From the NCBI GenBank assembly GCA_013360675.1, contig JABWBB010000019.1:1-47968 (forward strand): 47,968 bases of DNA, given 5' to 3'. Made by a program: the position numbers and the translations under genes. The DNA comes from Phycisphaerales bacterium. GTDB lineage: Bacteria; Planctomycetota; Phycisphaerae; Phycisphaerales; UBA1924. Positions within the stretch are counted from its first letter, which is position 1; the number at the start of each line of letters is the position of its first letter. The notes under the pieces were generated by a model, which was given only the letters and a program-made list of their open reading frames with translations, was not told the DNA's origin and searched no databases. Positions 23,974 through 47,004 of this stretch are shown here, piece by piece.

Positions 23974-24116
23974 GCCGGCATCTGGCCCGCCCCGTGGCAG
24001 TCAAGGGCGAAGCGGGCGAGATTCGGACCACAAGCTCAGCAACGGGCTATCAGATGGCCCGATAAGACTTGGCGGAAGCCTCGCGTTATTCTGGCGTGCG
24101 CGGTACAATCACTCCG

Positions 24117-24878
24117 GTGGTGAAGATTCGTTCCAAGGCGGCGTTCTCGCTGCTCGAGTTGCTGGTGTGCATCGCGATCATCGCGCTGCTGCTGGGCATC
24201 TTGCTGCCCGTGCTGGTGCATGCCCGGCGCGTGGGTTACGCCGCCGTCTGCTCGAGCAACCTGCGCCAACTGAGCATCGGGTGGCAGTCGTACCTGCAGG
24301 ACAACAAGGACATGTTCCCGCGCTATGGGGCGCTGCCCGAGTGGGAATACGGCGGGGCGGTGTTCGTCGGCGCGGAGCGGCGCGCGGCGCTCGATGCCCG
24401 TCGCCCGATCAACCGGCATCTCGACGCCGCCAGCCGTGAAGATTCCGATCTGGCGCGTCTCTTTCACTGCCCGGGCGACCAGGGCGTGTATGAGCGGGGC
24501 GTGGCCAGCCGCGGACGGGCCGGCCCCTCGCTGCTGGCGCGCGGGTCGGCGTTTGAGCAGTACGGCACGAGCTACCGCGCCAACCCGCTGCTGATGGATT
24601 CGAGCAAGGCGGGGCTGGATCGGGCCGCACGCCCGCTGGGGCTGCACGAACTGCACGCCGACCACAGCCGCGTGCTGCTCACCGCCGACGCGACGTGGGC
24701 CTATGCGACAGCGACGCCGGGAAGCGAAGAGGCCTCGCGCGAGGCCTCGTGGCATGGCAACCGCGACCAGGGCAACATGCTCGCGGTGGACGGCTCGGTG
24801 CGGTACATCAACTTTGCACAGAGCCCACGCGTCGAGTTTGTGATCTCGCCCCGTCCCGAGATCGCGGACGCCAATTGA
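24117..24878 (+). CDS. Type IV pilin-like secreted protein with H-X9-DG motif
   Basis: About 253 residues. The prepilin leader reads MVKIRSKAA then FSLLELLVCIAIIALLLGIL; cleavage would be before Phe with Glu at +5, as required for a prepilin peptidase. The end has WHGNRDQGNMLAVDGSVRYI, the H-x9-DG motif of planctomycete and verrucomicrobial pilin-like proteins. These are abundant in these phyla and of unknown role. The start is uncertain: GTG at 24117 or 24120, or TTG at 24069. I prefer 24117 because no Shine-Dalgarno is visible and TACAAT (24104-24109) ends 7 bases before it, suggesting a leaderless transcript. A peptidase for the leader is not in the window. Confidence 0.78.
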   Translation: MVKIRSKAAFSLLELLVCIAIIALLLGILLPVLVHARRVGYAAVCSSNLRQLSIGWQSYLQDNKDMFPRYGALPEWEYGGAVFVGAERRAALDARRPINRHLDAASREDSDLARLFHCPGDQGVYERGVASRGRAGPSLLARGSAFEQYGTSYRANPLLMDSSKAGLDRAARPLGLHELHADHSRVLLTADATWAYATATPGSEEASREASWHGNRDQGNMLAVDGSVRYINFAQSPRVEFVISPRPEIADAN

Positions 24879-24930
24879 ACCGATCATCGGGCCGTGCACG
24901 GTGCTGAGTCTTCAGCGGCGTGCGGTCGCG

Positions 24931-24966
24931 CCAAAAACAACCGAACCCCGCGTGGGCGGGGTTCGG
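24931..24966 (-). terminator. Rho-independent terminator of the H1-like gene
   Basis: Perfect 11-bp stem CCGAACCCCGC (24941-24951) with GCGGGGTTCGG (24956-24966) and a 4-base loop. On the minus strand it is followed by TTGTTTTTGG. It lies 34 bases after the stop of the H1-like gene and is one of the clearest terminators in the window. Confidence 0.85.
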
Positions 24967-25000
24967 CGCAACCGTCCATGGTTGATTGGATCGTCCGTGA

Positions 25001-25243
25001 TCAGGCGGCCTTGCGGGTGAAGGTCGCGGTGGCGCGGCGGGTGCGCCGAGCCTTGCGCTTGGGGGCCTTGCGGGCCGTGGCGGCCTTGAAGGACCAGCGG
25101 CTGTTCGTCTTGCGGGCCTTGGGCGCCGCCTTGCGGGCGGTCTTGCGGGCCTTGGGGGCCGCCTTGCGGGCGGTCTTGCGGGCCTTGGGGGTGCGCTTGG
25201 CCGAGGCTTTGCGCGTGTTCGAACGGGTACGGGTCGTCGGCAT
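25001..25243 (-). CDS. Small histone-H1-like basic protein with KARKTARKAAP repeats
   Basis: 80 residues, more than a third Lys/Arg and rich in Ala and Thr, with no acidic residues. The centre has the 11-residue unit KARKTARKAAP repeated about two and a half times, and the whole is predicted to be disordered. This resembles the C-terminal tail of histone H1 and bacterial H1-like proteins, which bind and compact DNA or bind RNA; that role is inference. Two ATGs lie close together (25249 and 25243). AGGAG is 2 bases before the first and 8 before the second, so MPTTRTRS at 25243 is chosen. It stands alone with its own terminator and is probably well expressed. Confidence 0.75.
   Translation of the reverse strand: MPTTRTRSNTRKASAKRTPKARKTARKAAPKARKTARKAAPKARKTNSRWSFKAATARKAPKRKARRTRRATATFTRKAA
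25107..25190 (-). repeat. 33-bp tandem repeat inside the H1-like gene
   Basis: The unit starts at 25107, 25140 and 25173 (period 33), about 2.5 copies, differing by a single base (GGGCGCC versus GGGGGCC) in the compared copies. It encodes the 11-residue KARKTARKAAP unit. Such coding repeats can change copy number by slippage or recombination. Confidence 0.85.
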
Positions 25244-25479
25244 ATTCATTACTCCTGACTGTCGGGCCTCCGTGCCCGCTGGTTGACGCCGCGAGTGCCG
25301 ACGGGCCGACGTTGGCCAGTCGCCGAGCGCGACACCAACGCATCCATGCGTCACGTCGCGCCGGGGGTTTGCCCTCCCGGACACCCACCGCATCGGCCGA
25401 TGGAGGGTCCGAGATCAGTGTCAGGCGAGATAAACTTCGCAGAATTGCTTCACCCTTGTCTTCCCACTCGAGCCGATCC

Positions 25480-26862
25480 ATGCCCCCCACTCCCGAACCC
25501 AACCCCGGCTGGAGCCCCGACACCTGGCAGCAGGTCGGAGGCGCCCATCAGTTTGAATACGACGACCCGCAAGATTTGGCTCGCGTGCTGGTGCAACTGG
25601 CGGCGTTCCCGCCGCTGGTCACCTCGTGGGAGATCGAGCGCCTCAAGAAGGAGCTGGCCCAGGCGCAGGCGGGCGAGCGGTTCCTGCTGCAGGGGGGCGA
25701 CTGCGCCGAGATGCTCCGCGACTGCACGCCCGGGGCGATCACCAACAAGCTCAAGATCCTGCTGCAGATGTCGCTGGTGCTGGTGCACGCCTCGAAGAAG
25801 CCGGTGATTCGCGTGGGGCGCTTCGCGGGCCAGTACGCCAAGCCACGGTCAAGCCCCACCGAGACCCGCGTGGTCGACGGTCAAGGCGTCACGCTGCCCA
25901 GTTACTTCGGCGATCTGGTCAACGCGCCCGAGTTCGAGCCCCAGGCCCGCCGCCCCGATCCGATGCAGATGCTGCGGGCGTACACGCGCTCGGCCCTGTC
26001 GCTCAACTTCATCCGCTCGCTGGTCGAGGGCGGGTTCGCCGACCTGCACCACCCCGAATACTGGGATCTCTCGTTCTTTTCGCACGCGAGCCTGGCCCCG
26101 GTCGTGCGCGATCGCTACGAGCGCATGGTCGAGCGCCTGGGCGACGGCCTGCGCTTCATGGAAGCGCTGGGCGAGCGGACCATCGACGACCTGACGCGCG
26201 TCGAGTTCTTCACCAGCCACGAGGGGCTCAACCTGTACTACGAGCAGGCCCAGACCCGAACCGTCCCCCGGCGCGAGGGGTGGTACGACCTCACCACCCA
26301 CATGCCCTGGATCGGCGATCGCGCCCGCCAGCCCGACGGCGCGCATGTCGAGTTCTTCCGCGGCGTGCGCAACCCCGTGGGCGTCAAGATCGGCGCCGAG
26401 GCCGACCCCGCGCAGATCGCCCGGGTCTGCCAGCGCCTCAACCCCGGCGACGAGCCGGGCAAGGTAGTGCTGATCACGCGACTGGGCGCGGAGCGTGTGC
26501 GCGACCTGCTGCCCAGGCTCATCTCGCGCGTCGCCGACGCCGCCGGGCGCGTGCTTTGGGTCTGCGACCCGATGCACGCCAACACACAGTCCACAACGAG
26601 TGGGATCAAGACACGCTCGTTCGACGCGATCCTCGCCGAACTCGAGACGACCTTCGAGACGCACGCCGCCTGCGGCTCGCACCTGGGCGGGGTGCACTTT
26701 GAACTGACGGGCGAGGACGTGACCGAGTGCGTGGGCGGAGCCGCGGGAGTGACCGAGGCCGATCTGAGCACCCGCTACGCCTCGTTCTGCGATCCTCGCC
26801 TCAACTATCAGCAGGCCCTCGAGATGGCCATGCGCCTGGGCACGCTCATGGGCCGCACGTAA
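25480..26862 (+). CDS. Type II DAHP synthase (3-deoxy-7-phosphoheptulonate synthase)
   Basis: 460 residues, the normal length for class II DAHP synthase. It condenses phosphoenolpyruvate with erythrose 4-phosphate, the first step of aromatic amino acid synthesis. Class II signatures are clear: WSPDTWQQ near the start, FLLQGGDCAEML with the metal-binding Cys, KPVIRVGRFAGQYAKPRS, FTSHEGLNLYYEQA, NPVGVKIG and WVCDPMHANT. The ATG at 25480 matches the family start; the open frame back to 25312 has no similarity and is rejected. There is no clear Shine-Dalgarno. A TAAACT box lies at 25431-25436 without a recognisable -35. No other shikimate genes are nearby. Confidence 0.95.
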   Translation: MPPTPEPNPGWSPDTWQQVGGAHQFEYDDPQDLARVLVQLAAFPPLVTSWEIERLKKELAQAQAGERFLLQGGDCAEMLRDCTPGAITNKLKILLQMSLVLVHASKKPVIRVGRFAGQYAKPRSSPTETRVVDGQGVTLPSYFGDLVNAPEFEPQARRPDPMQMLRAYTRSALSLNFIRSLVEGGFADLHHPEYWDLSFFSHASLAPVVRDRYERMVERLGDGLRFMEALGERTIDDLTRVEFFTSHEGLNLYYEQAQTRTVPRREGWYDLTTHMPWIGDRARQPDGAHVEFFRGVRNPVGVKIGAEADPAQIARVCQRLNPGDEPGKVVLITRLGAERVRDLLPRLISRVADAAGRVLWVCDPMHANTQSTTSGIKTRSFDAILAELETTFETHAACGSHLGGVHFELTGEDVTECVGGAAGVTEADLSTRYASFCDPRLNYQQALEMAMRLGTLMGRT

Positions 26863-26973
26863 GACTGCTTCCCACGCCTGGGGGAGCGGTCGCGTGAATT
26901 CGGGCAGGCGGACCAAAGTTGCCCGTGCGTGGTTCCGATAGTCCTTGACGCCCCGCTGGCGAGGGATCAAGCC

Positions 26974-27309
26974 ATGGAATCGCAACACTCCGAGCACCCC
27001 GAACTCAAGTTGACCGTCGCCCGTGAACGCCGCCGCGCCCCACGCGTCGGCGTCAAGGGGAGCGCGATGACGATCTTTTCATCGGGCTCGGCGGCGGGAA
27101 TGCTGACGCGCGTCGACCTCGTCGACGCCAGCCACACGGGCCTGGGCGTCACCAGCCCCATCGCGGTCTCGCCGGGAACCTCGTTCTCGCTGATCCCCGA
27201 GGCGGTGGCCTCGCCACGCCAGATCGGCATCGTGGTGCGCTGCGAGCAGGATGATAAAGGCCTGTACCGGCTTGGACTGCGCAGTCGCTTCGCCAAGGCC
27301 GTGGCCTGA
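26974..27309 (+). CDS. PilZ-domain protein
   Basis: 112 residues forming a single PilZ domain. The c-di-GMP binding elements are RERRRAPRV (RxxxR-type) and DASHTGLGV (D-x-S-x-x-G), which suggests binding of c-di-GMP. Stand-alone PilZ proteins act as receptors that change the behaviour of a partner; none can be named here. GAGGG lies 8 bases before the ATG at 26974, which decides the start over 26929. Confidence 0.8.
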   Translation: MESQHSEHPELKLTVARERRRAPRVGVKGSAMTIFSSGSAAGMLTRVDLVDASHTGLGVTSPIAVSPGTSFSLIPEAVASPRQIGIVVRCEQDDKGLYRLGLRSRFAKAVA

Positions 27310-27546
27310 CGCGCATCGCTTGATCAATCCGCGCATTCACGTTGATGTTTGCAGCGTGTTTGTAACCTGCACGCAGTTCACGCGCGCATACACACCAATT
27401 GGGTAATTCGATACACGTAGATCTCAAACGTGTTGCCTTGCGGTATCGCGCCAGGTTGTTACACCGGAGGCATTCGCTGCGGGGCGTTGAATGGCCTACG
27501 CGCCCCTGGAGGAAGCAGTCCCCTCGGCCAGAAATGGAGAGACACG

Positions 27547-28200
27547 ATGAAAGCCATGCAACGATTCAGCGTCGTATCCGCTCTCGCAGCTATCAGCGGC
27601 ACAGCTTCGCTCGCGCTCGCGGGCGATGCTTTCCCGCCGCCGTGGCGGGGCGATCCGGGCTCGACATTCCAGATCTGGCGTTTCCAGAACCCCACGAATC
27701 CATTCCCGGATGAATTCGACAATCCGTACGGCGTTCCACAGCTGGAGCTGAACCCCGGCAATGAATGGCTCCCGGGCCCGCCCGAGCTGCCCGGCTATAC
27801 CGGCGGCGTCTGGTGCATTCCCGCGGGTGGTTCGCTCAGTTTCCACATCCCCAACGTCGTCTCGACCGACCGGGAGAAAGAGATCTACTTCCAGATCAAA
27901 TACTTCAGCCCGGGCACGGTGCCCACGCCCAGCGGCGTTGATGCCGCGGGCAACCAGGCCCAGCCCTGCGGGCCGATCTTCACCCCCAGCCCCGGCGGTG
28001 TGCCGGGCCAGAGCTACTGGGCCGGGAGCCTCTGCTTCCCGATCTGTGCGGGCGGTGAAACCATCACCTTCTCGAACGTCAACCCGACCCAGCCGATGTA
28101 CATCGACCAGGTCGTGATTGACACACGCTGTGTCCCGACGCCCGCCTCGCTGGCCCTGCTGGGCCTGGCCGGGCTGGTGGTGACGCGCCGTCGTCGCTGA
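27547..28200 (+). CDS. Exported protein with PEP-CTERM-like sorting signal
   Basis: 217 residues. It has an N-terminal signal peptide (MKAMQRFSVVSALAAISGTA then SLALA), a Pro/Gly-rich body with four Cys, and the C-terminal tripartite signal PTPASLALLGLAGLVVTRRR: a PxP motif, a short membrane segment and a basic end. This is the PEP-CTERM type handled by exosortase/archaeosortase-like enzymes; none is encoded in the window. The body is not recognised. GGAGAG lies about 6 bases before the ATG. A 237-base AT-richer leader region precedes it and a terminator follows. Confidence 0.8.
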   Translation: MKAMQRFSVVSALAAISGTASLALAGDAFPPPWRGDPGSTFQIWRFQNPTNPFPDEFDNPYGVPQLELNPGNEWLPGPPELPGYTGGVWCIPAGGSLSFHIPNVVSTDREKEIYFQIKYFSPGTVPTPSGVDAAGNQAQPCGPIFTPSPGGVPGQSYWAGSLCFPICAGGETITFSNVNPTQPMYIDQVVIDTRCVPTPASLALLGLAGLVVTRRRR

Positions 28201-28233
28201 CCGCTGTTGGAGTGAGAGATCCCGTGGACAAGG

Positions 28234-28265
28234 CCCGGCACGCACACCGCGTGTCGGGTCTTTTT
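28234..28265 (+). terminator. Rho-independent terminator after the PEP-CTERM gene
   Basis: 10-bp stem CCCGGCACGC (28234-28243) with GCGTGTCGGG (28249-28258, one G-T pair), loop ACACC, then TCTTTTT. It lies 33 bases after the stop codon. Confidence 0.85.
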
Positions 28266-28311
28266 GATGCGCGACGGATTCACGCGCACTGATCGCGCAC
28301 GACACCCAGGG

Positions 28312-28884
28312 TCACGCCGTGGGGCGGCCCATCGCGTCCCACGTGTCGTGGTAACGCTGCCACATCACGTCGAGTGCGCCGGGGATGACGCGCACCTGCC
28401 CCACCACCGCCATGAAGTTCACGTCGCCGCCCCAGCGCGGCACAAGATGCACGTGCAGATGCTGGGGCACGCCCGCGCCCGCCGCCCGTCCCTGGTTCAC
28501 CCCGATGTTGATGCCCTGGGGCTCGATGGCCTTGTGCATGATCTCCGCGGCGAGGTCCGTCAATCGCCAGAGCTGCGCGCGCTGCTCGGGCTCATAGTCG
28601 AGCAACGTCGGGCGTGCATCGCCCAGCGCGACGAGCAGGTGTCCGTTGGCGTAGGGATACGCGTTGAGCAGGATCAGCCCGCTGAGCGTGCGCACGATCA
28701 CGTGATTGGCCTGGTCGCGCGACGCATCGAGCCAGTACTCGCGCAGGAACGACCCCGACGCCGGGCGCGGCACGCCGCCGCTCTTTTCGCTCGCGTCCAT
28801 GGCCTCGAGGTAGCCCAATCGCCAGGGGGCCTGGATCGACGCGGGAGAGCCCTGCTGGGCGCGGTCTGGTGCGGGATCGGGCAT
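28312..28884 (-). CDS. HIT-family nucleotide hydrolase/transferase
   Basis: 190 residues. The histidine triad is HLHVHLVPRW, and NAYPYANGHLLVAL and NIGVNQGRAAGAGVPQ complete the HIT pattern of the Fhit/AP4A-phosphorylase-like branch. Such proteins hydrolyse dinucleoside polyphosphates or AMP-adducts. The ATG at 28884 is chosen: longer frames run through the divergent dciA gene. No Shine-Dalgarno; TACGCT ends 6 bases before the ATG. It shares a 44-base divergent start region, built as an inverted repeat, with dciA. Confidence 0.9.
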   Translation of the reverse strand: MPDPAPDRAQQGSPASIQAPWRLGYLEAMDASEKSGGVPRPASGSFLREYWLDASRDQANHVIVRTLSGLILLNAYPYANGHLLVALGDARPTLLDYEPEQRAQLWRLTDLAAEIMHKAIEPQGINIGVNQGRAAGAGVPQHLHVHLVPRWGGDVNFMAVVGQVRVIPGALDVMWQRYHDTWDAMGRPTA

Positions 28885-28932
28885 CGGCAGAGCGTACGCC
28901 CCTGCGCCGCAAGCCGTACGATCTGCCGATGC
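28881..28932. repeat. 18-bp inverted repeat holding both start codons of the HIT/dciA pair
   Basis: GCATCGGCAGAGCGTACG (28881-28898) and CGTACGATCTGCCGATGC (28915-28932) are reverse complements except at one position, with 16 bases between. Each arm contains a TACGNT box followed by CTGCCG and the ATG of the gene reading outward. It may be a symmetrical leaderless divergent promoter or an operator. Confidence 0.85.
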
Positions 28933-29273
28933 GCCGTCCCAGTGCCCGGACCCAGATCGAGCAACTCCGCAAGTTCCGGGTGCGTCCGCCCCGCGATGCC
29001 TCGATCGGCGCGGACGTAAGCGCCCTGCACGCCCAGTTCGCCCGCCAGCAGAAGCGGGGCGGGGGCTTCGAGGCGCTCTGGGCCGAGATCGTGCCGCCCG
29101 AAATCGCGGCGAGCACCCGCGTGGACCGGTATACCCGTACGGGCGTCCTCGTCGTGCGCGTCCAGGATTCCGCCGCTCGTTTTCAGACCACGCAGTGGCT
29201 CGCGGGGGGCGGGCTCGAGGCGCTGCGGGCCAAGGCTCCGGCAACGCTGAAACTCGTGCAACTCAAGCTCTAA
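28929..29273 (+). CDS. DciA-like (DUF721) protein, probable helicase-loading factor
   Basis: 114 residues. The C-terminal half (RYTRTGVLVVRVQDSAARFQ ... LRAKAPATLKLVQLKL) is the DUF721 domain. DciA proteins act with the replicative helicase DnaB in bacteria that lack DnaC or DnaI. The N-terminus is basic. No dnaA, recF or gyrB is adjacent, unlike some other genomes. There is no Shine-Dalgarno; TACGAT ends 6 bases before the ATG, in the inverted repeat shared with the HIT gene. Confidence 0.72.
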   Translation: MRRPSARTQIEQLRKFRVRPPRDASIGADVSALHAQFARQQKRGGGFEALWAEIVPPEIAASTRVDRYTRTGVLVVRVQDSAARFQTTQWLAGGGLEALRAKAPATLKLVQLKL

Positions 29274-29291
29274 TCTCTCTCAGACGCGCCC

Positions 29292-29744
29292 ATGGATACC
29301 GGCCTCTCGTCCATCAACATGCCGCCCCACACGTGCGGATACTGCACCTATTCGCTCGACCCCGCGCTTGCCGCCTGCCCCGAGTGCGGCACCACCACTC
29401 AGACCGGGCAATCGTTGTCCGACGATCTGCATCGCCAGCGCCGACACGTCGCCCTGGCGATGGGCGTGGCCGGGATTGCCTCGCTCGTGATGATGGCCGT
29501 CGGGCCGGAATGGATGCCCAGCACGGCCGGAGCCAACGGACGCGTCGGTGGGATTGCGCTCTTCTTCGGCACGCTCGCGTTTGGCGTGGTGCTGCTGCTG
29601 GCGTGGCACTGGCGAAGCCCGCGCGGAGCCGCGACCTTTGGCGCGATCTGGGCGATGATCTATCTCGCGCCGCTCTTCTGGGCCGCCTCCCTCTCGCTGT
29701 GCGCGATCGGAAGCGTGTTCGGGCTCATCGGCCGATGGTTCTAA
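29292..29744 (+). CDS. Zinc-ribbon membrane protein of unknown function
   Basis: 150 residues. CGYC and CPEC (residues 15-18 and 29-32) form a short zinc ribbon at the N-terminus, followed by about four membrane segments (about 51-71, 86-106, then two in the last 40 residues). No known family is recognised. It starts 18 bases after dciA on the same strand and may be cotranscribed. No clear Shine-Dalgarno precedes it. Confidence 0.65.
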   Translation: MDTGLSSINMPPHTCGYCTYSLDPALAACPECGTTTQTGQSLSDDLHRQRRHVALAMGVAGIASLVMMAVGPEWMPSTAGANGRVGGIALFFGTLAFGVVLLLAWHWRSPRGAATFGAIWAMIYLAPLFWAASLSLCAIGSVFGLIGRWF

Positions 29745-29760
29745 TCGCGTGGGGCGGGCT

Positions 29761-30822
29761 TCAACGCCAGCCGGTGGTGATGAGTTCCGCGCCGCCGTAG
29801 TCGATGCCCTGAAGCCCGCCGCGTGTCCAGCGGAAATACCCGTCGAGCAAATCCTCGAAAGGCGGGTAGAACCCTCCCGAGGGTGTGGGCACCTCCCACA
29901 GGCCCGGGATGTAGCGGAAGCGTGTGGGGAAGCTGCGGAAAGGCTGGGACGGGTCGAAGCCCTTGTTGGCGTCGCCGGTGCGGCGCATCACGACCGATTG
30001 GTCGAAGAAGAGCAGCGGCGACTTGGCTTCGGGATAGGCGTAGAAGAGCGATCGCTTGCCGCTGTGGCGTGCGAAGGTTTCATGGTGGTGCACCTTCTGC
30101 GAGGGGAACGAAACATCACCCATACGGCGACGCCCGAAGATGTCGGCGGACATGGCGGCATTGGTGAACTGGTAGTAGCGGTGCGTGGAGGCCTGTCGCA
30201 CGCTGCTGTGGTTGGGCGCGTCGCCGCGGTCAGGTGTGAACGAAGCGGGCACACTCTCGTAGCTGCTGCTATAGGGCCAGCGCTTGCCGCGGTCGGTGCC
30301 CTGATCGGGCGCGTGGGGAGAGATCTCCATGTTGTCGAATCCGAGCGGGTTGTCCTGCCACTGCATGCGCAGTCGGTCCTCGGGGCACGAGACCATGCGC
30401 TCGGGCAGGCGCTGCGCGAGGTAATCCTGCAGCACCAGGTGGTTGTAGAGGATCTGCGGGATCCAGTTCTCGAACCACGTCATGTCGTCGCGCCCGGCGC
30501 GACGGCGCAGAATGTCGATCGCCTGCGCCGACGCCGCCTGCAGGTCATCGCCCCAGGGCCCGCGCAGGTCGGCAAACTCCGAGCGTGTCTCGACGCCCGC
30601 CTTCCACGTGAACGAGAAGATCTTGTCCTGGAAGTCGGCGGCGTAACTGGCCGTCGCCGTCCCCAACTGCTTCAGGTTGGTCTGGCAGATGGTCAGCCGC
30701 CCGGTCTTGCGGGCCTCGCCCAGCGCGGGCAGCAAAATGCTGATGAGCAGCGCGACGATCGCGATGACGACCAGCAGTTCGATGAGCGTGAACCCCAAAC
30801 GACGCGAGTGCGTGTACCCCAT
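29761..30822 (-). CDS. Type IV pilin-like secreted protein
   Basis: 353 residues. The leader [10 protein letters not shown] is followed by [20 protein letters not shown], a textbook class III signal with cleavage after Gly and Glu at +5. The remainder begins [20 protein letters not shown], as in the planctomycete pilin-like family, and is otherwise not recognised. It lacks the H-x9-DG end seen in the 24117 gene. No Shine-Dalgarno; TAGGCT (30831-30836, read on the minus strand) ends 8 bases before the ATG. The gene diverges from the MFS transporter 41 bases away. Confidence 0.8.
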
Positions 30823-30863
30823 GGCGGCCCAGCCTACCACAAGACGTACACTCACCACCCCCC

Positions 30864-32084: not shown

Positions 32085-32136
32085 GGGTCTATACTCCCGC
32101 CCCTGTCGTTTTCGTCCGATGAGGAGGGGAACGAAC

Positions 32137-32210
<74 letters not shown>

Positions 32211-32298
32211 TTGAATCGATCGACCGTTGGGTCGATCGCGCACCCGCGACCATCCGAACCGGGCAAATCGATCCGGGCATTTCCGACGAATCGCGGCT

Positions 32299-34437: not shown

Positions 34438-34465
34438 TTGCAGGCCACGACCTCATCGGTACACT
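34438..34465 (+). promoter_or_regulatory. Candidate promoter directly abutting a start codon
   Basis: TTGCAG (34438-34443) and TACACT (34460-34465) with a 16-base spacer. Transcription would begin at about 34472, the A of the ATG, so the mRNA would be leaderless. This is the only one of the leaderless-type starts here with a recognisable -35. Confidence 0.6.
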
Positions 34466-35101: not shown

Positions 35102-35135
35102 CCGCGGCGCGGCGTTCCACGCTACGCTCTCCCTC

Positions 35136-36515: not shown

Positions 36516-36569
36516 GATGAGTGATGGTAGACGCCGGGGCGGGTTTTGGCCTCCTACCTTGCACGCGTC

Positions 36570-38071: not shown

Positions 38072-38123
38072 GAACCCAGCCTAGGGGATGCCCACCCCCG
38101 ACGCAACGACGCCCTGGTTCTCG

Positions 38124-38519: not shown

Positions 38520-38541
38520 GGCTCCGCCAGGTTCGTGGGCG

Positions 38542-39051
38542 TCAGGCTGATCCGGTCAGGCCCGCCATCCAGGTGGGCTTGGCATTCTCGGGAATCGCGG
38601 TCGTGGGCGTGGGGGTCCAGTCCGTGGTCTTCTTCTCGCCCGCCCACTCGGGGGCCTGCGCCCTCGACTTGGCCTTGGGTTCGATGGTCGTCGTCGTGCG
38701 CGCGGGCGGGTTCGCCAAGGCCTCGGGACCCACGCGGCAATGGCCGATGAACGTCGCACCTTCAGCCACGGCGACGGCGGCGGCGGTGATGTCGCCCTTG
38801 AGCGTCGCCTTCGAGCTCAGCGTCAGCCGCTGACGCGCGACCACGTCCCCCTCGACGGTCCCGTCGATGACGACCGTGTCGGCCTCGATCGCGGCCTGGC
38901 AGACGGCCCCCGACCCGATGGTCAGCTCCCCGGTGCCGTTGATCTGGCCGTCCACCCCACCCAGAATCCGTGCCGATCCTTCAAAGGCCAGTTCGCCCTT
39001 GATCTTGGTGCCGGGTCCGATAATCGTTGCGGTCGTCTCACGCTCGGGCAT
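38542..39051 (-). CDS. Bactofilin (polymer-forming cytoskeletal protein)
   Basis: 169 residues. The bactofilin core (about 8-108) starts ATIIGPGTKIKGELAFEGSA and continues in six-residue-type beta-helix turns (RILGGVDGQING, VVIDGTVEGDVVARQRLTLS, ATLKGDITAAAVAVAEGATF). A disordered Pro/Thr/Lys tail follows. Bactofilins form nucleotide-free filaments used in cell shape and envelope positioning. GGAG lies 9 bases before the ATG. Confidence 0.88.
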   Translation of the reverse strand: MPERETTATIIGPGTKIKGELAFEGSARILGGVDGQINGTGELTIGSGAVCQAAIEADTVVIDGTVEGDVVARQRLTLSSKATLKGDITAAAVAVAEGATFIGHCRVGPEALANPPARTTTTIEPKAKSRAQAPEWAGEKKTTDWTPTPTTAIPENAKPTWMAGLTGSA

Positions 39052-39188
39052 TGACGCATCTCCGGACGCACCCCGGCATTCGCGCAGGGAGCGGTATCCG
39101 CTTTCTATCGGACGTGGGCCTTACCCGGTCGCAGACTTTTTCCTGCGTGTTTCGGCGTTCGGGGTGCCGCCCGCCGACTGTCGTGCGG

Positions 39189-40334
39189 TTAGAGCCCCTC
39201 GTGAAGGATCGCGCGGACGACCTCGAAGGCGATGAGCAGGATGATGATCCACTCGAGGATCTCCATCCGCGTGTTGGCCTGGCGGTCGGCGAGCTTCTGA
39301 TAGACACTGTCGAGGGTGCCCAGTTTGCGCAGGACGGTGGTGTCCCAGTCGGGGAGGTGCAGGCGCTGGGCGGCGAGGCGGTAGAGACGCGCCAGGTACT
39401 GATCCCCCACCAGCTTGAGCGCGTTGTTCACGCCTTCGAAAAGGGCGGCCGAGTCCATCTGCAGGCGGGCCACGCGGCGCAGCCGATGCGCCCCCCCCGT
39501 GAACCGGTTGGCCAGCGACATGGGCTGGTGCACCAGGCGGTAGACCTCGTCGAGCGAGCGGTCGAGTTTGTCGTCGAGCGCGCGCAGTTCGAGCAGCTCG
39601 ACGTTGGCGAACTCGAGCACGCTGAGCGTGTCGGCGGCCGCTCGATCGAAGACGATCGACGCGTTCCAATCGATGAGGGTCAGGTCGTGCTCGCCATACG
39701 ACAACCGGGCGGCGAGGGCCTCGCCGATCTCCTGGGCCGAGAAGGGATCGCGCTCGGACCTCAAGATGCCCGCGACCAAGGCCCGGTTGGCTTCGACAAA
39801 TGCGTCATAGGTTGAAACGCCATCGGGCAGCGTGGCCCGAGCGATATGGAAGACGTGGTAGTCCTCGGCGATGGGGACGACATCGGGGCGATCAAGGGCC
39901 GCGTGCAGATCTTGCATCAGGCGGTCGAGTTGGCTCCGGGCCTCGTTGAGGAGGGACTCGTTTTCATACAACGCCGCGGAGAGGTCGCGCAGGCGGGCGA
40001 AGGGCCCGGCCAGGGGGAACATGAAGGCGACGGAGACGGCGCCGAAGTCGTAGAGGGTGAGTTCAAGGGTGGGGCCGGTGTGGAAGCCCCCCACCTCGAG
40101 GGCCGCCGCGGGGCGGGTGATGCACAGGGGGAGGGGGCGGTAGTCAAAGTGCTCGGGGGCTCGGCGGCTGTTGCGGACGGTTTCGCGGTGCCCATCGGCG
40201 TCGGCGATGCTCGCGATGAGGCGTTCGGCCAGGTCGAGGTCGATGGCCCGGGCGATGTCAAAGGCGAACATGACGGTGCAGACGCCCTCGTCCACGTGAA
40301 GGTCCGGGCGGGATGCGTGCTGTGCGTCGGGCAT
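39189..40334 (-). CDS. Rmd1/YagE (DUF155) family membrane protein
   Basis: 381 residues. The central DUF155 domain contains EDYHVFHIARATLPDG and, near the end, YLARLYRLAAQRLHLPDWDT, KLGTLDSVYQKLADRQANTR and MEILEWIIILLIAFEVVRAI, the usual C-terminal membrane anchor of the RMND1/Rmd1 family. Eukaryotic members act in mitochondrial translation or positioning; bacterial roles are not defined. No Shine-Dalgarno; CACAAT ends 5 bases before the ATG at 40334. Longer frames to 40676 run antisense through the next gene. Confidence 0.85.
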   Translation of the reverse strand: MPDAQHASRPDLHVDEGVCTVMFAFDIARAIDLDLAERLIASIADADGHRETVRNSRRAPEHFDYRPLPLCITRPAAALEVGGFHTGPTLELTLYDFGAVSVAFMFPLAGPFARLRDLSAALYENESLLNEARSQLDRLMQDLHAALDRPDVVPIAEDYHVFHIARATLPDGVSTYDAFVEANRALVAGILRSERDPFSAQEIGEALAARLSYGEHDLTLIDWNASIVFDRAAADTLSVLEFANVELLELRALDDKLDRSLDEVYRLVHQPMSLANRFTGGAHRLRRVARLQMDSAALFEGVNNALKLVGDQYLARLYRLAAQRLHLPDWDTTVLRKLGTLDSVYQKLADRQANTRMEILEWIIILLIAFEVVRAILHEGL

Positions 40335-40415
40335 GGGGGATTGTGGGCGCGGTACACTGCCCGTGTCGACCGTGCCGGGGCGTTGTTTCGGGCGGGACGA
40401 CCCAGGAGACCGCTC

Positions 40416-40727
40416 ATGCTGACGAAACTGATCCGAATTGCGCCGATGCTGGCGGTGGTGGTGTGCGTGTTCCTGGGCGGGTGCGAAGAGAAACTCACCA
40501 ACGAGAACTTCGCGTCGATCACGCCGGGCATGACCATGTCGCAGGTCGAGGACATCCTGGGCAAGGGCACGAAGCAGGAGGCCACGGGCGTGAACATCAG
40601 CGCCTATGGCGTGGCGGGCGGCTCGAAGCCCAGCGAAGAGTTTGTGATCCTCACCTGGCGCAAGGGCAACACGCACTACAGCGTGCGCTTCAAGGACGGC
40701 AAGGTCGTCGAGGCCGTCAAGGGCTGA
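40416..40727 (+). CDS. Small BamE/SmpA-like lipoprotein
   Basis: 103 residues. MLTKLIRIAPMLAVVVCVFL then GGC is a lipoprotein signal (Cys23). The mature part (FASITPGMTMSQVEDILGKG, later FVILTWRKGNTHYSVRFKDG) has the BamE/DUF3862 pattern: a helix pair followed by strands. BamE belongs to the outer membrane barrel assembly machine, but many such small lipoproteins have no shown link to it. AGGAG lies 7 bases before the ATG. TACACT at 40352-40357 is a possible -10, giving a leader of about 50 bases. Confidence 0.72.
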   Translation: MLTKLIRIAPMLAVVVCVFLGGCEEKLTNENFASITPGMTMSQVEDILGKGTKQEATGVNISAYGVAGGSKPSEEFVILTWRKGNTHYSVRFKDGKVVEAVKG

Positions 40728-40864
40728 TCCTTAGCCACGCTGAACAACGACGGGGCACGATGCTCGCGCGAACGCGGGAGTGATCGTCACGAATGCGCTT
40801 GGGTATCACACCAAAGGCCCTGGGTTCTACCCACGGAACCCGACGCCGGCTTCGTGCGTCAAAC

Positions 40865-41179
40865 CTACGGCATGTCCCCGGCTCTGACGAACAACACCAT
40901 AGCCGGAAGGTATGAAAGCGCGATTCCCGCGACACGGACATTCCACGCGCCCACACCGCCGGGGAGCAACCCAAGCACCATGGACGTGCGGATCGGCGGG
41001 ACATCGTTGGGGGGTGAGCCAAACTGGCCCGAGAGCGCACCCTCGCGAGCGGCCATGTCGTTCAGGTCGGTGTCGGGTGTGTACGTCAAGACCCGTCTCC
41101 CGACGAGGCTCCATAGCATGATTGACAGCGCGACAATCCCCAGCACGCCAAGCAGAGCAATCCATGGCACGGCTCGCAT
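40865..41179 (-). CDS. Small membrane protein of unknown function
   Basis: 104 residues with two membrane segments (about 5-25 and 80-98) joined by a polar stretch that would face the periplasm if both ends are cytoplasmic. No family recognised. The ATG at 41179 is supported only by CATACT ending 8 bases upstream. A frame extending to 42277 exists but lies antisense to the LolA-like gene and is rejected. Confidence 0.5.
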   Translation of the reverse strand: MRAVPWIALLGVLGIVALSIMLWSLVGRRVLTYTPDTDLNDMAAREGALSGQFGSPPNDVPPIRTSMVLGLLPGGVGAWNVRVAGIALSYLPAMVLFVRAGDMP

Positions 41180-41224
41180 GAATCGGGAGTATGCCGCGAT
41201 CACGCGTCGGAGAGGGAGTTCACG

Positions 41225-42229
41225 ATGATGTTGTTGGCCATGATCCTGACGACGGCCGTGGGTTGGACCCAGCCCGCGCCGGTCTATTCGGTCGGGTTGA
41301 GCCTCGCTGTCCAACCTCAGCCCGCGGACGAGCCAAAGACGCCCCCCGCGGAGCCAAAGCCCGCCACGGAACCAACGCCCGCCGAGCCCTCCTGTCCGCT
41401 CACCTCTCCCAAGGTTCCCTCGGCGGCACCCACGCCGCCACCGGCGGCATCCGAGACACCTCCCGAGATCAAGCCCGGCGCACCGATCACGACGCCCGAG
41501 GCGTTGCTGTCGGCGCTCGAGGTGGCTGATGCGGACATGCGCACGATCCAGGCCGACTGCCGCTATGACAAGATCTTTGAGATCGCCGGCGACGAGCAGG
41601 TGCGCTGGGGCAAGCTCTATTACGAAGACCAGACCAAACCCGGTGAAGCGCGCATGCGGCGCTTCGCGGCAAGTTTCGAGCAACTGCGCATCGGCCGTCG
41701 CATCGAGAAGGAGCCTGTGGTCTACGTCTTCGACGGCACGATGCTGATCGAGACGCGCCCGACGCGCAAGGAGATGGTGCGCAGCCGCGTGGCCCGCGAG
41801 GGCGAGGCGATCGATCCGCTGCGGATCGGCGAGGGCCCGCTCCCGCTGCCTATCGGGCAGAAGCGCGACGACATCCTGGCGCGGTTCGAAGCGACGCTGC
41901 TCCCCGCCGATGCGGACCTGCCCGATATCCGCGAGAAGGCGGCGTTCTCGGCCCTGGTCGCGGGGGCGTATCAGTTGCGGCTGTCCCCCAAGCCGGGCAT
42001 CAAGGAACTGCGCGAGTTCGCGGACATTCGCCTGTGGTACCGGGAATCGGGCGGGCGGCTGCTCCCCGTGGCGGCCAAGACCACGAACAAGACGGGCGAC
42101 CTGAGTATTTTCTGGCTCGACAAAGTTCAGGTGAACGCTTCGATCGAACCGCACGTATGGGCGTCGGAGACCCCGGGTGAGGGCTGGTCCGTGGTTGAAC
42201 GGAACCTGGCCGACCCCGAGGGCCGATAG
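41225..42229 (+). CDS. LolA-like outer-membrane lipoprotein carrier family protein
   Basis: 334 residues. A weak signal peptide (about 1-20) is followed by a Pro/Glu/Ala-rich linker (30-95). The folded part, from LLSALEVADADMRTIQADCR through ARMRRFAASFEQLRIGRRIE and VVYVFDGTMLIETRPTRKEM, follows the LolA/LolB half-barrel pattern. LolA carries lipoproteins through the periplasm, but this distant relative may do something else. AGGGAG lies about 6-9 bases before the double ATG. It is 8 bases from the TPR-peptidase gene, so the pair is an operon. Confidence 0.68.
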   Translation: MMLLAMILTTAVGWTQPAPVYSVGLSLAVQPQPADEPKTPPAEPKPATEPTPAEPSCPLTSPKVPSAAPTPPPAASETPPEIKPGAPITTPEALLSALEVADADMRTIQADCRYDKIFEIAGDEQVRWGKLYYEDQTKPGEARMRRFAASFEQLRIGRRIEKEPVVYVFDGTMLIETRPTRKEMVRSRVAREGEAIDPLRIGEGPLPLPIGQKRDDILARFEATLLPADADLPDIREKAAFSALVAGAYQLRLSPKPGIKELREFADIRLWYRESGGRLLPVAAKTTNKTGDLSIFWLDKVQVNASIEPHVWASETPGEGWSVVERNLADPEGR

Positions 42230-42237
42230 GGAGACGT

Positions 42238-44829
42238 ATGCGTTTGTCCCTGGTCCGACGCGGCATGGCCGCCGCAATGCTGATGTGGGTGTGTGGGCAC
42301 GCGGCGAACGCCGCCCCGCAACCCGAGGGGATTCCCTATCCCGATCTCTCGCCCGCGGTGCGCACGCTGCTCGCGCAGGACTATCTCACCGCCGACGAAC
42401 GAACGGCCCTGCGAATCCGCCACGGAACATGGGAACAGGGCGATCTGTCCGATCCGATCGCGCGCGCATCGGCGTCGCTGATCCGCGGGGCGTGGAATGA
42501 TGACGCTCTGCGCGACGAACGAACCCCCGCGCTCGACCGGGCCGAGGGTTCCCTGCGCCGCGGCGAGCCCGAGGCATGCCTCACGCTCTGCGAGGGCCAG
42601 CCCGGGCCGCGGGCCCTGCGCCTGCGCGGCGAGGCGCTGCTCGACCTGGGCCAAACCAAAGAGGCGATCGAGGCGTTGAGCGCGGCGGCCTCGCACGCGG
42701 GCGCCGGAACGCTCGCGGACGTCGTCGAGCCGGTGCTGGCGCGAATTCTGTTGTCGCGCCTGCGCGAGGCGGGCCATGCCGACTACCGCGCGATGATGGG
42801 GTCGCTCTCGCGCGTACGCGAGCAGGTGGACAAGCTGGCGTGGGAGCCGCGCCTGGCCGAGGCCGCGCTGCTGTACGAAAAAGACAACTACCCCGAAGCG
42901 GCGCAGGCGCTGACCGAGGCGATGACGCTCAACCCGCGCCTGGGTGCGGGCTGGGCGCTGGCGGGGCAACTCGCCGTCGATGCCTTCGACATGGACAAGG
43001 CCGAGGCCATCGCCACGCGCTTGGATGAACTCGCGGCCCCATCGCCCAGCCCCGAGGGAGCGATCGTCCGCGCCCGCGCTCGTCTTCGCCTGAGCGACGG
43101 CGAAGGGGCACTCAACGCCCTTGCCCCCGCGATCGAGCAGTTCCCCACCCATCGCGGGCTGTTGGCAGCGCGGGCGGCGGCGACGGCGGCAACGTTCGAC
43201 GACGCGGGCGCCAAGGCCCACCTCGATGCGCTCGACGCCCTGGCCCCGGGCACGCCGATGGGCTACATGGAAACCGGTCGAGCCATGGCCGGCGCCCGCC
43301 AATACGACGAAGCCGCCGACGCGCTGCGCTTGGCGACAAAGCGTGCCCCCGCGTGGGCCGAGCCTTGGATCGAACTGGGTCTGTCGGAGCTGCAGGCGGG
43401 GCGGCTGGATTCGGCGCGCGTGTCGCTCGAAAAGGCCGCGTCGCTGGATTCATTCAATGTGCGTGCGGCCAACAGCCTGACGCTGCTGCGCGAGATCGCC
43501 TCATACGCGACGATCGAAACCCCGCACTTTGTGGTGCGCTACAAGCCGGGGATCGACGAGGTGATGGCCCGCGAGATGGGCCCGGTGCTCGAGCGGATCT
43601 ACACGCGTGTGACGGGCGACGAGCCGGGCGGGATCGACCACGAGCCCGAGGGAAAGACGACCGTCGAGCTGTATCCCAACCACCGCTGGTTTAGCGTGCG
43701 GATCACCGGCATGCCGCGCCTGCACACGATCGCGGCGGCGACGGGCCCGGTGATCGCGATGGAGCCCCCGCGCGAGGGGCCCGGGCACAAGGCTGGGGCG
43801 TATGACTGGTCGCGCGTGGTGCAGCACGAGTTCACGCACACGGTCACGCTCTCGCGAACGCGCAACCGCCTGCCCCACTGGTTCACCGAGGCCGGGGCGG
43901 TCTATCTGGAGGATTCGCCCAATGACTACACGGCGATCCAGGTCGTGGCGCGGGCCTACGAGACGAACACGCTGCTCGACTTCGACACGATCAATGTCGC
44001 GTTCGTGCGTCCGGCACGCCCGACCGACCGGTCCCTGGCCTATGCCCAGGGGCACTGGATGTACGAGTACATCGTCGAGCGGTTTGGGGCCGAGTCGCCG
44101 CTGAAGCTGATGGACCTCTACGCCGCGGGCGTCCGCGAGGAGGCGGCGTTCGCGCAAGTGCTGGGCATCACGCGGCGCGAGTTCCTCGATGATTTCCGCG
44201 CACACGCCGGGAAACGGCTGGGCGCGTGGGGCGTCGTGCCAACGCCCGAGCACCCGTCGATCCGTGAACTGCTCAGCGCGTCGGCGGGCGCCACCGAAGA
44301 GGCCCCCACCACCCCCTCCGACGCCATGCTCGACCGCTGGCTCGCCGAGCACCCGGCCAACCCCTTCGTGCTCGACGCGGCGGTCAAGCGGATGCTCCGC
44401 GCAACGAAGAACGCGCCCACGATCGACGATGCCCCGCTGCTCGAGCGTTACGCCGCCGCGAGGCCCGTTGACCCGCTCCCGCACAAGCTCCTCGCGGCGA
44501 TCCGACTGGCCGGCCCCACGCCCGAGGCAGCAATCCCTCACCTTCAGTACCTCGACGAGCGCGAGCAATACACCGCGGCCTATGCGACCGAACTCTCGCG
44601 GCGTTACCTCGCCCAGGGCGACTTGACCCGCGCGATGGAGAAATCGCTGCGGGCGACACGCATCGCCCCCTACGACGCCAGGGTGCGCGAGTTTGGCGCG
44701 ATGGTGGCGATCCGCGCGGGGCAACTCGACGACGCCCAACGTCACCTCGAGGCGCTGACGCTGATCGAGCCGGATCGGCCCATCCACGCCGAGCGGCTTG
44801 AGGCGCTGCGCGCGATGAAGGCCCGCTAG
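42238..44829 (+). CDS. Exported TPR protein with gluzincin-type metallopeptidase domain
   Basis: 863 residues. A signal peptide (MRLSLVRRGMAAAMLMWVCG, cleavage near 25) leads to a long array of TPR-like helices (about 80-420 and again 690-860). Between them a peptidase domain carries HEFTH (H530-H534) and then E551 in WFTEAGAVYLE, giving HEXXH-x16-E, the gluzincin zinc site seen in peptidase-MA-like proteins. It probably works in the periplasm; the substrate is unknown. GGGAG lies 5 bases before the ATG. Paired with a LolA-like gene upstream. Confidence 0.82.
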   Translation: MRLSLVRRGMAAAMLMWVCGHAANAAPQPEGIPYPDLSPAVRTLLAQDYLTADERTALRIRHGTWEQGDLSDPIARASASLIRGAWNDDALRDERTPALDRAEGSLRRGEPEACLTLCEGQPGPRALRLRGEALLDLGQTKEAIEALSAAASHAGAGTLADVVEPVLARILLSRLREAGHADYRAMMGSLSRVREQVDKLAWEPRLAEAALLYEKDNYPEAAQALTEAMTLNPRLGAGWALAGQLAVDAFDMDKAEAIATRLDELAAPSPSPEGAIVRARARLRLSDGEGALNALAPAIEQFPTHRGLLAARAAATAATFDDAGAKAHLDALDALAPGTPMGYMETGRAMAGARQYDEAADALRLATKRAPAWAEPWIELGLSELQAGRLDSARVSLEKAASLDSFNVRAANSLTLLREIASYATIETPHFVVRYKPGIDEVMAREMGPVLERIYTRVTGDEPGGIDHEPEGKTTVELYPNHRWFSVRITGMPRLHTIAAATGPVIAMEPPREGPGHKAGAYDWSRVVQHEFTHTVTLSRTRNRLPHWFTEAGAVYLEDSPNDYTAIQVVARAYETNTLLDFDTINVAFVRPARPTDRSLAYAQGHWMYEYIVERFGAESPLKLMDLYAAGVREEAAFAQVLGITRREFLDDFRAHAGKRLGAWGVVPTPEHPSIRELLSASAGATEEAPTTPSDAMLDRWLAEHPANPFVLDAAVKRMLRATKNAPTIDDAPLLERYAAARPVDPLPHKLLAAIRLAGPTPEAAIPHLQYLDEREQYTAAYATELSRRYLAQGDLTRAMEKSLRATRIAPYDARVREFGAMVAIRAGQLDDAQRHLEALTLIEPDRPIHAERLEALRAMKAR

Positions 44830-44839
44830 AGAAGAACGT

Positions 44840-45589
44840 TTATCCTGGCGTGGGTGCTGGCGCGTCGGTTTCGCCCGGGAGACTGCCGATGTCGTTGGCC
44901 TTCCAGCCGGTCCACGCGAGGTAGCGCTGGCGAAGATCGAGGGCGATCTCGTCGGGCGTAAGACCCGAATCGGCGTAGTCGATGGGCTCGTGAAAGACGA
45001 CGCGCGAGCGGCTGGGGCGGATCAGGCTGGCCCAGGCGTGATCGACCGCGGGCGTGCCGTCGACGATCACGGGCAGGACGCGCACCTTGGTCTTGGCGAT
45101 GAGCAGACCCACGCCCGCGTGGAAGCGCCGGATCTGGCGGGGCGGACGCTCAAGGCCCCCCTCGGGGAAGACGCCGATGACGCCCCCGTGCCGCAGATGG
45201 CGGATCGCGTCGCGCGTGCCGCGGACGTCGCGCCCGGTGCGCTTCACGCTGATGATGCCCGCATAGTTCCAGAACCACTCGAAGGCGGGCAGGCGCATGT
45301 CCTGGGCCATCATCCAGCGGATCTCGAAGGGGCAGGCGGCCTGGATGAGCAGCGGATCGATGCCCGCGGTGTGGTTCGAGATCACGATCAGCGCGCCCGG
45401 GTGACGCCCCGCCGGGATGTGGTGCCGCCCCTCGACGCGAAGCGAATGAACCAGTCGCGCGTACCACTCGGTGAAACGGAAGAACATCCCGCTGACGGGC
45501 TCTTCGCGCGGCGTGTCGAGCAGCCAACGCGACACGAACGCGAAGGCCACCATCGCCATCAACGCCAAGATGAGCCATAAAAGCCACAT
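44840..45589 (-). CDS. 1-acyl-glycerol-3-phosphate acyltransferase (PlsC-like)
   Basis: 249 residues. One N-terminal membrane segment (1-20). The acyltransferase motifs are NHTAGID (H73, D78), the Arg-containing block SVKRTGRD, FPEGG (141-145; the usual form is FPEGTRS) and VLPVIVDGTPAV. It would add the second acyl chain in phospholipid synthesis or act on a related acceptor. The ATG at 45589 has no Shine-Dalgarno; TAACAT ends 11 bases before it. It diverges from rarA. Confidence 0.88.
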   Translation of the reverse strand: MWLLWLILALMAMVAFAFVSRWLLDTPREEPVSGMFFRFTEWYARLVHSLRVEGRHHIPAGRHPGALIVISNHTAGIDPLLIQAACPFEIRWMMAQDMRLPAFEWFWNYAGIISVKRTGRDVRGTRDAIRHLRHGGVIGVFPEGGLERPPRQIRRFHAGVGLLIAKTKVRVLPVIVDGTPAVDHAWASLIRPSRSRVVFHEPIDYADSGLTPDEIALDLRQRYLAWTGWKANDIGSLPGETDAPAPTPG

Positions 45590-45657
45590 GCGGGGGGCGG
45601 ATGTTAGTCAACCCAAACCCGGAAGGGTTGTGTTCGGTAGTGGCCTAGAGTCGGGGC

Positions 45658-47004
45658 ATGGGTGATCTGTGGGCGAGCCGGCGGGCGGCGGCGGTGCGGG
45701 CGGTCGAGCCGCTCGCGCAGCGCCTGCGCCCCTGCACGCTCGACGAGTTCGCCGGGCAGACGCACATCCTGGGCCCGGGCAAACTGCTTCGCCGCATGCT
45801 CGACGCCGACACGATCAGCAGCCTGATCCTGCACGGCCCGCCGGGCACGGGCAAAACCACGCTGGCCGAGTTGATCGCGTCGCGCACCAAGCGCCACTTC
45901 GAGCGCGAGAACGCGGCGAGCGTGGGCGTGAAGCGCATCCGCGAGTTGATCGACGAGGCGCGCAGCCGCCTCGAACTCGAGGGACGCCGGACGATCCTCT
46001 TCCTCGACGAGATCCACCGATTCACCAAGGCCCAGCAGGACGTGCTGCTGGGGGACGTCGAACGCGGCTTGATCACGCTGATCGGGGCGACGACGGAGAA
46101 CCCGCTGTTCGCGGTCAACAGCGCGCTCGTCAGCCGCAGCACGCTGCTGCGCCTCGAAGCCCTCGACGAAGAGGCGATCGTCGGGGTGCTCCGCCGGGCC
46201 ATCGCCGACCCCGAACGCGGCTACGGCAACCTCGCGCTCACGGTGAGCGACGACGCCCTGCGCCTCTGGGCGACCAAGTGCGACGGGGACGCCCGCCGGG
46301 CGCTGACGGCGCTGGAAGTCGCCGTGCTCAGTTCGCAGGGAAACCAGGCCGTGCCCGCCCCGATCGTGATCGACCGCCAGGTGGCGGAGGATTCGATCCA
46401 GCAGAAGGCGGCGGTCTACGACGCCACGGGCGACGAGCATTACGACGTCGCCTCGGCGCTCATCAAATCGGTGCGCGGGAGCGACCCGGACGCGGCGGTC
46501 TACTGGATCGCGCGGATGCTCGACGCGGGCGAGGACCCCCGATTCATCGCGCGTCGCCTGGCCATCCTCGCCAGCGAGGACATCGGCAACGCCGACCCGC
46601 GGGCGATCATGGTGGCGAGCGCGGCGTGGCAACTGGTCGAGCGCATCGGCATGCCCGAATGCCGCATCACCCTCGCGCAAGCCGCGATCTACCTCGCGCT
46701 AGCCCCCAAGAGCAACGCCTCGTACCTGGCCATCGAAGAGGCCCTGGCCGACGTGCGCGAGGGACGGACCATCCCCGTGCCGGTGCACATCAAGGACGCC
46801 AACGTGCGCAAGGCGGCGGACATGAGCAAGGGCTCGGGCGGGGGTGCTGCCTACGCCTATGCGCACGATTCGCCCGGCGGCATCGGGACGCAAGACTACC
46901 TCGGCGTGGACAAGACCTATTACCGCCCGTCGCAGCATGGGCTCGAACGCCAACTGGCCGAACTGCTCGAGCAGATCCGCGCCTCGCGCGAGGGCACGAA
47001 GTAA
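45658..47004 (+). CDS. rarA: RarA/MgsA, replication-associated recombination AAA+ ATPase
   Basis: 448 residues, normal for RarA. RLRPCTLDEFAGQTHILGPG near the start, Walker A HGPPGTGKTT (59-68), Walker B ILFLDEIHRF (113-122), sensor GATTENP, and the C-terminal tetramerisation part (DEHYDVASALIKSVRGSDPD, AAVYWIARMLDAGEDPRFIA, RRLAILASEDIGNADPRA). It acts at stalled replication forks. No Shine-Dalgarno; TAGAGT ends 6 bases before the ATG. Confidence 0.96.
   Translation: MGDLWASRRAAAVRAVEPLAQRLRPCTLDEFAGQTHILGPGKLLRRMLDADTISSLILHGPPGTGKTTLAELIASRTKRHFERENAASVGVKRIRELIDEARSRLELEGRRTILFLDEIHRFTKAQQDVLLGDVERGLITLIGATTENPLFAVNSALVSRSTLLRLEALDEEAIVGVLRRAIADPERGYGNLALTVSDDALRLWATKCDGDARRALTALEVAVLSSQGNQAVPAPIVIDRQVAEDSIQQKAAVYDATGDEHYDVASALIKSVRGSDPDAAVYWIARMLDAGEDPRFIARRLAILASEDIGNADPRAIMVASAAWQLVERIGMPECRITLAQAAIYLALAPKSNASYLAIEEALADVREGRTIPVPVHIKDANVRKAADMSKGSGGGAAYAYAHDSPGGIGTQDYLGVDKTYYRPSQHGLERQLAELLEQIRASREGTK

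Follow-up and report, generated by a model that had tools for sequence, protein, structure and literature searches.

A window of 47,968 nucleotides (nt), by which we mean the whole stretch of DNA analysed here, was taken from the draft genome (2.92 Mb in 84 contigs) of an uncultured member of the Phycisphaerales (Planctomycetota). Many of its genes carry a short sequence box, TANNNT, just before the start codon. In the host and its sampled relatives within the order, about one sampled gene in six carries TANNNT 5–9 bases before its start. These boxes are very probably −10 elements, mostly without a −35 element, of housekeeping promoters giving leaderless mRNAs, a reading that draws its support from the position of the boxes, their avoidance of Shine-Dalgarno sites, their gene context and their conservation. 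A sigma70-type polymerase would bind the box as its −10 element and transcription would begin with the first nucleotide of the start codon, which would place the 5′ end there with a leader of 0–2 nt. Ribosomes would then initiate directly on the leaderless mRNA.

Boxes before blind-called gene starts

We called gene starts from codon usage and start-codon type only, with a caller that ignored upstream sequence. The own-genome sample consisted of the window and twenty 20-kb stretches (448 kb, 387 genes), of which 367 genes were usable after those shorter than 80 amino acids or with less than 70 nt upstream had been dropped. A box gene was defined as having the first T of TANNNT at −15 to −11, that is, a spacer of 5–9 nt to the start codon. 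For the wider order pool we added to the own genome 12 more from its family, nine that represent five further families, and 25 named loci, which are records with planctomycete names (mostly Phycisphaerales) encoding relatives of the window's 863-amino-acid TPR/peptidase-like protein. Removal of exact duplicate upstream sequences left 1,367 non-redundant genes, drawn from 47 genomes or records, although some named records may be the same organism as another pooled genome. One record among the planctomycete relatives of the 863-amino-acid protein, L023 (QWIH01000007.1), is titled Leptolyngbya sp., and this label may be wrong. Letter-permuted versions of TANNNT at the same places served as control motifs; genes without a called upstream neighbour were left out of the permuted-motif counts and of some neighbour counts, and 62 such genes were tallied apart in the context counts.

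In the own genome, 54 of 367 genes had a box, compared with a chance rate of about 2.5%, and 45 of 326 still did when the window was set aside. The first T fell at −15, −14, −13, −12 and −11 in 7, 8, 14, 20 and 6 genes, respectively, over a background of 1.85 per position, and TANNNT was found in 53 of 349 genes where the permuted motifs averaged 6.4. The order pool gave 26, 27, 43, 79 and 45 genes at the same five positions, with 6 at −16 and 1 at −10 (background 5.94 per position). The mode thus lies at −12 (79 of 1,367 genes), the place of the TA-like signal about 12 bp before the start. Expressed as box-to-start spacers, 5, 6, 7, 8 and 9 nt occurred in 45, 79, 43, 26 and 25 of the 218 box genes.

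Within the window, 9 of 43 called genes had the first T at −15 to −11, where about one would be expected at 2.5% (binomial p 1e-6). The ten boxes of the original prediction were all present in the sequence at the places and spacings it gave. The tenth box, before the gene at 28884 (−), was missed in the blind count because the caller set the start 66 nt downstream; orthologues support 28884. The boxes in the window, including two that were absent from the earlier list, are as follows.

24104..24109 (+), TACAAT, 7 nt before GTG 24117; prepilin-like protein with an N_methyl motif
28891..28896 (−), TACGCT, 6 nt before ATG 28884; HIT-domain protein, divergent to the gene at 28929
28917..28922 (+), TACGAT, 6 nt before ATG 28929; DciA-like protein
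30831..30836 (−), TAGGCT, 8 nt before ATG 30822; prepilin-like protein, with a 41-bp divergent spacer
30847..30852 (+), TACACT, 11 nt before ATG 30864; MFS transporter (absent from the earlier list)
34460..34465 (+), TACACT, 6 nt before ATG 34472; protein without a Pfam match
35123..35128 (+), TACGCT, 7 nt before GTG 35136; class IV aminotransferase
36524..36529 (−), TACCAT, 8 nt before ATG 36515; cyclophilin, with a 54-bp divergent spacer
36555..36560 (+), TACCTT, 9 nt before ATG 36570; MscS-type channel
38078..38083 (−), TAGGCT, 6 nt before ATG 38071; DUF2959 protein
45601..45606 (−), TAACAT, 11 nt before ATG 45589; acyltransferase (absent from the earlier list)
45646..45651 (+), TAGAGT, 6 nt before ATG 45658; RarA/MgsA-type AAA+ ATPase

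By the 5–9 nt rule the window contains two divergent pairs with a box on both sides, 28884/28929 (44 bp) and 36515/36570 (54 bp). A further pair, 30822/30864 (41 bp), could be added if its box at 11 nt were admitted; that box (30847..30852) is weak because it lies outside the 5–9 nt peak. As to the other box at 11 nt, the relatives L029 and L035 have TAACAT 6 nt before the start. The divergent acyltransferase/rarA pair itself, 45589 (−)/45658 (+) in the window, recurs in L029, L035 and L160, where the gene on the minus strand is preceded by TAACAT and rarA by TANNNT.

Among one-letter variants of TANNNT, none approached the TANNNT peak in the order pool. The original prediction had also listed CATAAT, CACAAT and CATACT as near-matches; these are present in the sequence, but CANNNT as a class was depleted at the peak positions, with 37 occurrences where the background predicts 53.6, and we rejected it as part of the class. 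AANNNT was seen 37 times at the peak positions with 29.1 expected. GANNNT rose at −11 and −10 (94 compared with 66.7), probably owing to Shine-Dalgarno cores. A whole-genome pattern count made without gene starts, which gave 134 matches compared with 104 for the reversed pattern, was too blunt to be used. In Escherichia coli, the same pipeline found boxes before 3 of 112 genes, with control motifs at 6.4.

Chance, or an artefact of start calling, might be suspected because TA is rare in GC-rich DNA, so a few boxes catch the eye, and because the caller agreed with just 15 of 21 matched annotated starts in E. coli (checked on 23 of the plus-strand genes in one 50-kb stretch). Yet the caller was blind to upstream sequence, the peak of 20 genes at −12 and the total of 53 genes far exceed the background and the permuted motifs given above, and the boxes persist in orthologues. 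We take this explanation as refuted and give it next to no weight. Some starts are nonetheless miscalled, so box genes probably make up slightly more than 15% of all genes.

Conservation of the boxes in the order and beyond

To tally orthologues of box genes, we scored a box whenever it preceded one of the in-frame candidate starts around the match and treated loci lacking a usable start as misses. Distant matches and likely paralogues were kept, and each count includes the window's own gene. Of the rarA loci fetched from the order, 25 of 26 had the box, at −11 to −15; the corresponding figures were 12 of 24 for the remaining orders of the class and 3 of 19 outside the class. Over all loci this amounts to 40 of 69, while ten control motifs averaged 9.7 of 69. 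One further order member (G018) stands outside the 26 loci, having a weak match only. The rarA boxes of the order read TAGAGT, TAGGAT, TACACT, TACAAT and TACCAT, so that T1, A2 and T6 are constant, and the flanks differ. Boxes were likewise retained before the HIT gene (16 of 21 genomes, control motifs 1.8), the aminotransferase gene (10 of 21 matched loci, control 0.9) and the DUF2959 gene (6 of 10 matched loci, control 1.9). Two genes served as Shine-Dalgarno controls: ptsN had boxes at 2 of 21 loci (control 1.3) and Shine-Dalgarno cores (GGAG, GAGG or AGGA) at 16 of 21, and the gene at 41225 had boxes at 2 of 20 (control 2.7) and cores at 13 of 20.

In the sample from the window's family, 64 of 277 genes had a box (control 8.9). 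The other families gave 10 of 58 (f2, control 1.2), 20 of 110 (f4, 3.8) and 11 of 124 (f5, 5.4), with little signal in f3 (1 of 30, control 0.6) and f6 (3 of 52, control 1.5). Rates outside the order were at control level, with 12 of 200 genes in other orders of the class (control 11.2) and 17 of 258 in other classes of the phylum (control 16.8), summed over GC classes, in samples that were small and, for low-GC genomes, of low power. The rarA gene itself often carries a box in the sister orders. One genome from another class of the phylum, G137, had a box before 4 of 17 genes, unlike most outside genomes, and may represent a second origin.

Gene context and promoter features

Shine-Dalgarno cores in the own genome peaked at −14 to −9 and were present in 2 of 54 box genes compared with 135 of 313 others. 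The order pool had cores in 416 of 1,367 genes, which form a separate GGAG ribosome-site class coexisting with the box class, and only 10 of 218 box genes had a core compared with 406 of 1,149 others, as expected from the claim that box genes lack Shine-Dalgarno sites. This exclusion is partly mechanical because the box occupies the space; the fair contrast is between the 10 of 218 box genes and 34 of 188 gene-motif cases with permuted control motifs. The two coexisting start modes originally proposed cannot account for everything, since 743 of 1,367 pooled genes, about half, have neither box nor core. Part of these 743 may be miscalled starts, and the rest would use another start mode.

A box that sits at the ribosome-site position and is seldom accompanied by a Shine-Dalgarno core could instead be a translation element, such as an AU-rich enhancer or a bS1-type ribosome site, within an mRNA whose leader is of the usual kind. 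One study does not decide whether bS1 sites underlie U-rich signals near −10 (PMC5397173). A translation element should, however, work inside operons, yet only 1 of 113 same-strand overlapping genes had a box, while 55 of 113 had a core. This near absence argues that the box is a promoter rather than a translation signal. Also difficult to reconcile with a translation element are the near-strict motif, an enrichment of TTG at the −35 distance (described below) and the crowding of boxes into short divergent spacers, and we consider such an element improbable.

The crowding was pronounced. Divergent neighbours in the order pool had boxes before 43 of 84 genes when the spacer was shorter than 100 bp, 38 of 183 at 100–249 bp and 14 of 152 at 250 bp or more. 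Shine-Dalgarno cores ran opposite to the boxes, with 12 of 84 genes in divergent spacers below 100 bp. Among same-strand neighbours, boxes were found before 19 of 127 genes at gaps of 0–24 nt, 38 of 141 at 25–59 nt, 30 of 189 at 60–119 nt and 31 of 316 at 120 nt or more, and before 4 of the 62 genes with no called neighbour. The original prediction that boxes mostly mark the first genes of units needs to be relaxed: although nearly missing from overlapping genes, boxes are not confined to the heads of long units, because same-strand genes at gaps of 0–24 and 25–59 nt carry them as well.

When divergent genes were taken as pairs (counts that include duplicates and short genes), 36 pairs with a spacer of 35–99 bp had boxes on both sides in 11 cases and on one side in 14, compared with 1 and 12, respectively, for 77 pairs with a spacer of at least 250 bp. 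Fifteen spacers carried two boxes; 13 had separate boxes, 12 of them in spacers of 36–104 bp, and the remaining 2 shared a TA. These two are 26-bp spacers (L158:3009-3034 and L308:2079-2104), in which boxes on opposite strands have one TA in common.

At the closest same-strand gaps (0–24 nt), the TA of the next box is supplied by an upstream TAA or TAG in 7 of 19 boxes, for example at L048:17527 and L049:15766. As the source of all close-neighbour boxes, the upstream stop codon was rejected, since it accounts for only these 7 of 19. At gaps of 8–12 nt, TAA/TAG stops were commoner than elsewhere (19 of 28 compared with 278 of 745, p 0.002), as was T at the sixth place (7 of 19 compared with 38 of 278, p 0.014), both on small numbers.

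A putative role of the box as a promoter −10 region is compatible with its gene context, with its conservation and with the TTG seen at the −35 distance. TTG begins 22–24 nt before the box in 22 of 218 genes, where 6.6 would be expected, with 4, 11 and 7 genes at 24, 23 and 22 nt compared with 2.2 per position elsewhere, although one other position also reaches 7. The 23-nt offset (11 genes) corresponds to the classical 17-bp promoter spacing. Bacterial RNA polymerase by preference initiates 7 bp downstream of the −10 element, seldom straying more than 2 bp further down or 1 bp up (PMC5730371). With a 6-nt spacer, the start codon begins exactly 7 bp downstream of the box, so the modal spacer would place the start codon at the preferred start position of the polymerase.

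Transcription from a −10 box might still begin a few bases up or down and yield very short leaders rather than truly leaderless mRNAs. Spacers of 8–9 nt (51 of 218) reach the limit of the usual range of start positions, and two boxes in the window are 11 nt from the start. Spacers of 5–7 nt, for which the start codon is no more than 1 bp away from the modal start (PMC5730371), nevertheless make up 167 of the 218, and we regard very short leaders as the general rule as unlikely, on a par with a translation element.

Several observations weigh against −10 elements giving leaderless mRNAs. Most boxes have no −35 element: a general element about 17 bp upstream was not found, and when the 218 box genes were aligned on the box, every column between −45 and −5 stayed at or below 0.06 bits. 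The extended −10 TG was only slightly above chance (23 of 218 compared with 12.3 expected), and another sampled position reaches 21. A pyrimidine occupies −1 in 176 of 218 box genes, but Shine-Dalgarno genes often have one there too (277 of 406). TANNNA was slightly raised at the peak positions (24 compared with 15.2), which suggests that the last T of the box may not be strict. Two of the rarA control motifs, T..A.T and T...AT, reached 23 and 32 of 69 in these partly AT-richer genomes, and the MscS box was not conserved (2 of 21 matched loci, control 1.9). The excess in our positive control, plasmid 1 of Deinococcus deserti (the species reportedly studied in De Groot 2014), was modest (11 of 141 genes compared with a control of 5.0). 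Finally, discriminator purines were not related to spacer length (Spearman p 0.61) in the manner of the start-site rule described in PMC5730371.

Relation to known leaderless systems

The kind of system proposed here is already known from Actinobacteria and Deinococcus, with Phycisphaerales as a probable added lineage. The parallel drawn in the original prediction stands as far as the motif class is concerned, with the amendment that the host here is a planctomycete. Zheng et al. (2011, PMC3160421) described a class of leaderless genes marked by a TA-like (TANNNT) signal some 12 bp ahead of the start codon, and the boxes reported here resemble that class in their motif, their place, the high-GC host and the low information in the middle three letters. 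The share of box genes is also near the roughly 20% given for Actinobacteria (PMC3160421). The 207 genomes with leaderless genes in that study belong to named groups plus one unclassified genome, and its passages on these groups do not name Planctomycetes (PMC3160421).

A −10 motif adjoining open reading frames in Deinococcus-Thermus is similar as well, with TANNNT at the start codon beside a GGAG motif (PMC12340547). That motif has been found experimentally to act as the −10 region of leaderless genes, and the case thus differs from ours in coming from another phylum and in having experiments, whereas the Phycisphaerales boxes are known from sequence alone (PMC12340547). The same study scanned species across all bacteria, and Planctomycetota may be included in its supplementary figure (PMC12340547). 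A 2017 survey included one planctomycete genome with an ambiguous signal, either leaderless or bS1 (PMC5397173). A paper that cites GeneMarkS-2 (Lomsadze 2018) reports that, among 5,007 prokaryotic genomes, 21.6% of the bacterial species are predicted to use leaderless transcription, and Planctomycetes could be among these species (PMC9581028). In the open-licence PMC literature, supplements excluded, we found no report mapping or predicting leaderless genes for Phycisphaerales.

The short divergent spacers have a partial counterpart elsewhere. Bidirectional promoters that share a symmetric −10 element were reportedly the subject of Warman 2021. As in those promoters, two back-to-back promoters would occupy one short spacer here; there the start sites are mostly 18 bp apart on a shared −10, whereas the boxes here are mostly separate (PMC10268837, PMC12825309). 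A shared −10 with starts about 18 bp apart is not the rule among our two-box pairs, 2 of 15 of which share a TA.

Putting these observations together, it is possible, though in our estimation somewhat short of an even chance, that Phycisphaerales evolved a second, order-wide start grammar in which −10 boxes, mostly without a −35, were fused to start codons and kept gene by gene (nearly everywhere in the order for rarA), while divergent spacers shrank to tens of base pairs. At the extreme, two leaderless genes would stand back to back and be read from opposite boxes with one common TA, with one polymerase excluding the other, and some boxes would borrow the TA of an upstream stop codon.

If leaderless initiation is true of these genes, a planctomycete order joins the lineages rich in leaderless mRNAs, and the box offers a means of locating gene starts and promoters in Phycisphaerales that have not been cultured. 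Should the difference between this order and its sister orders hold up in larger samples, the gain and loss of leaderless starts would become testable within one phylum.

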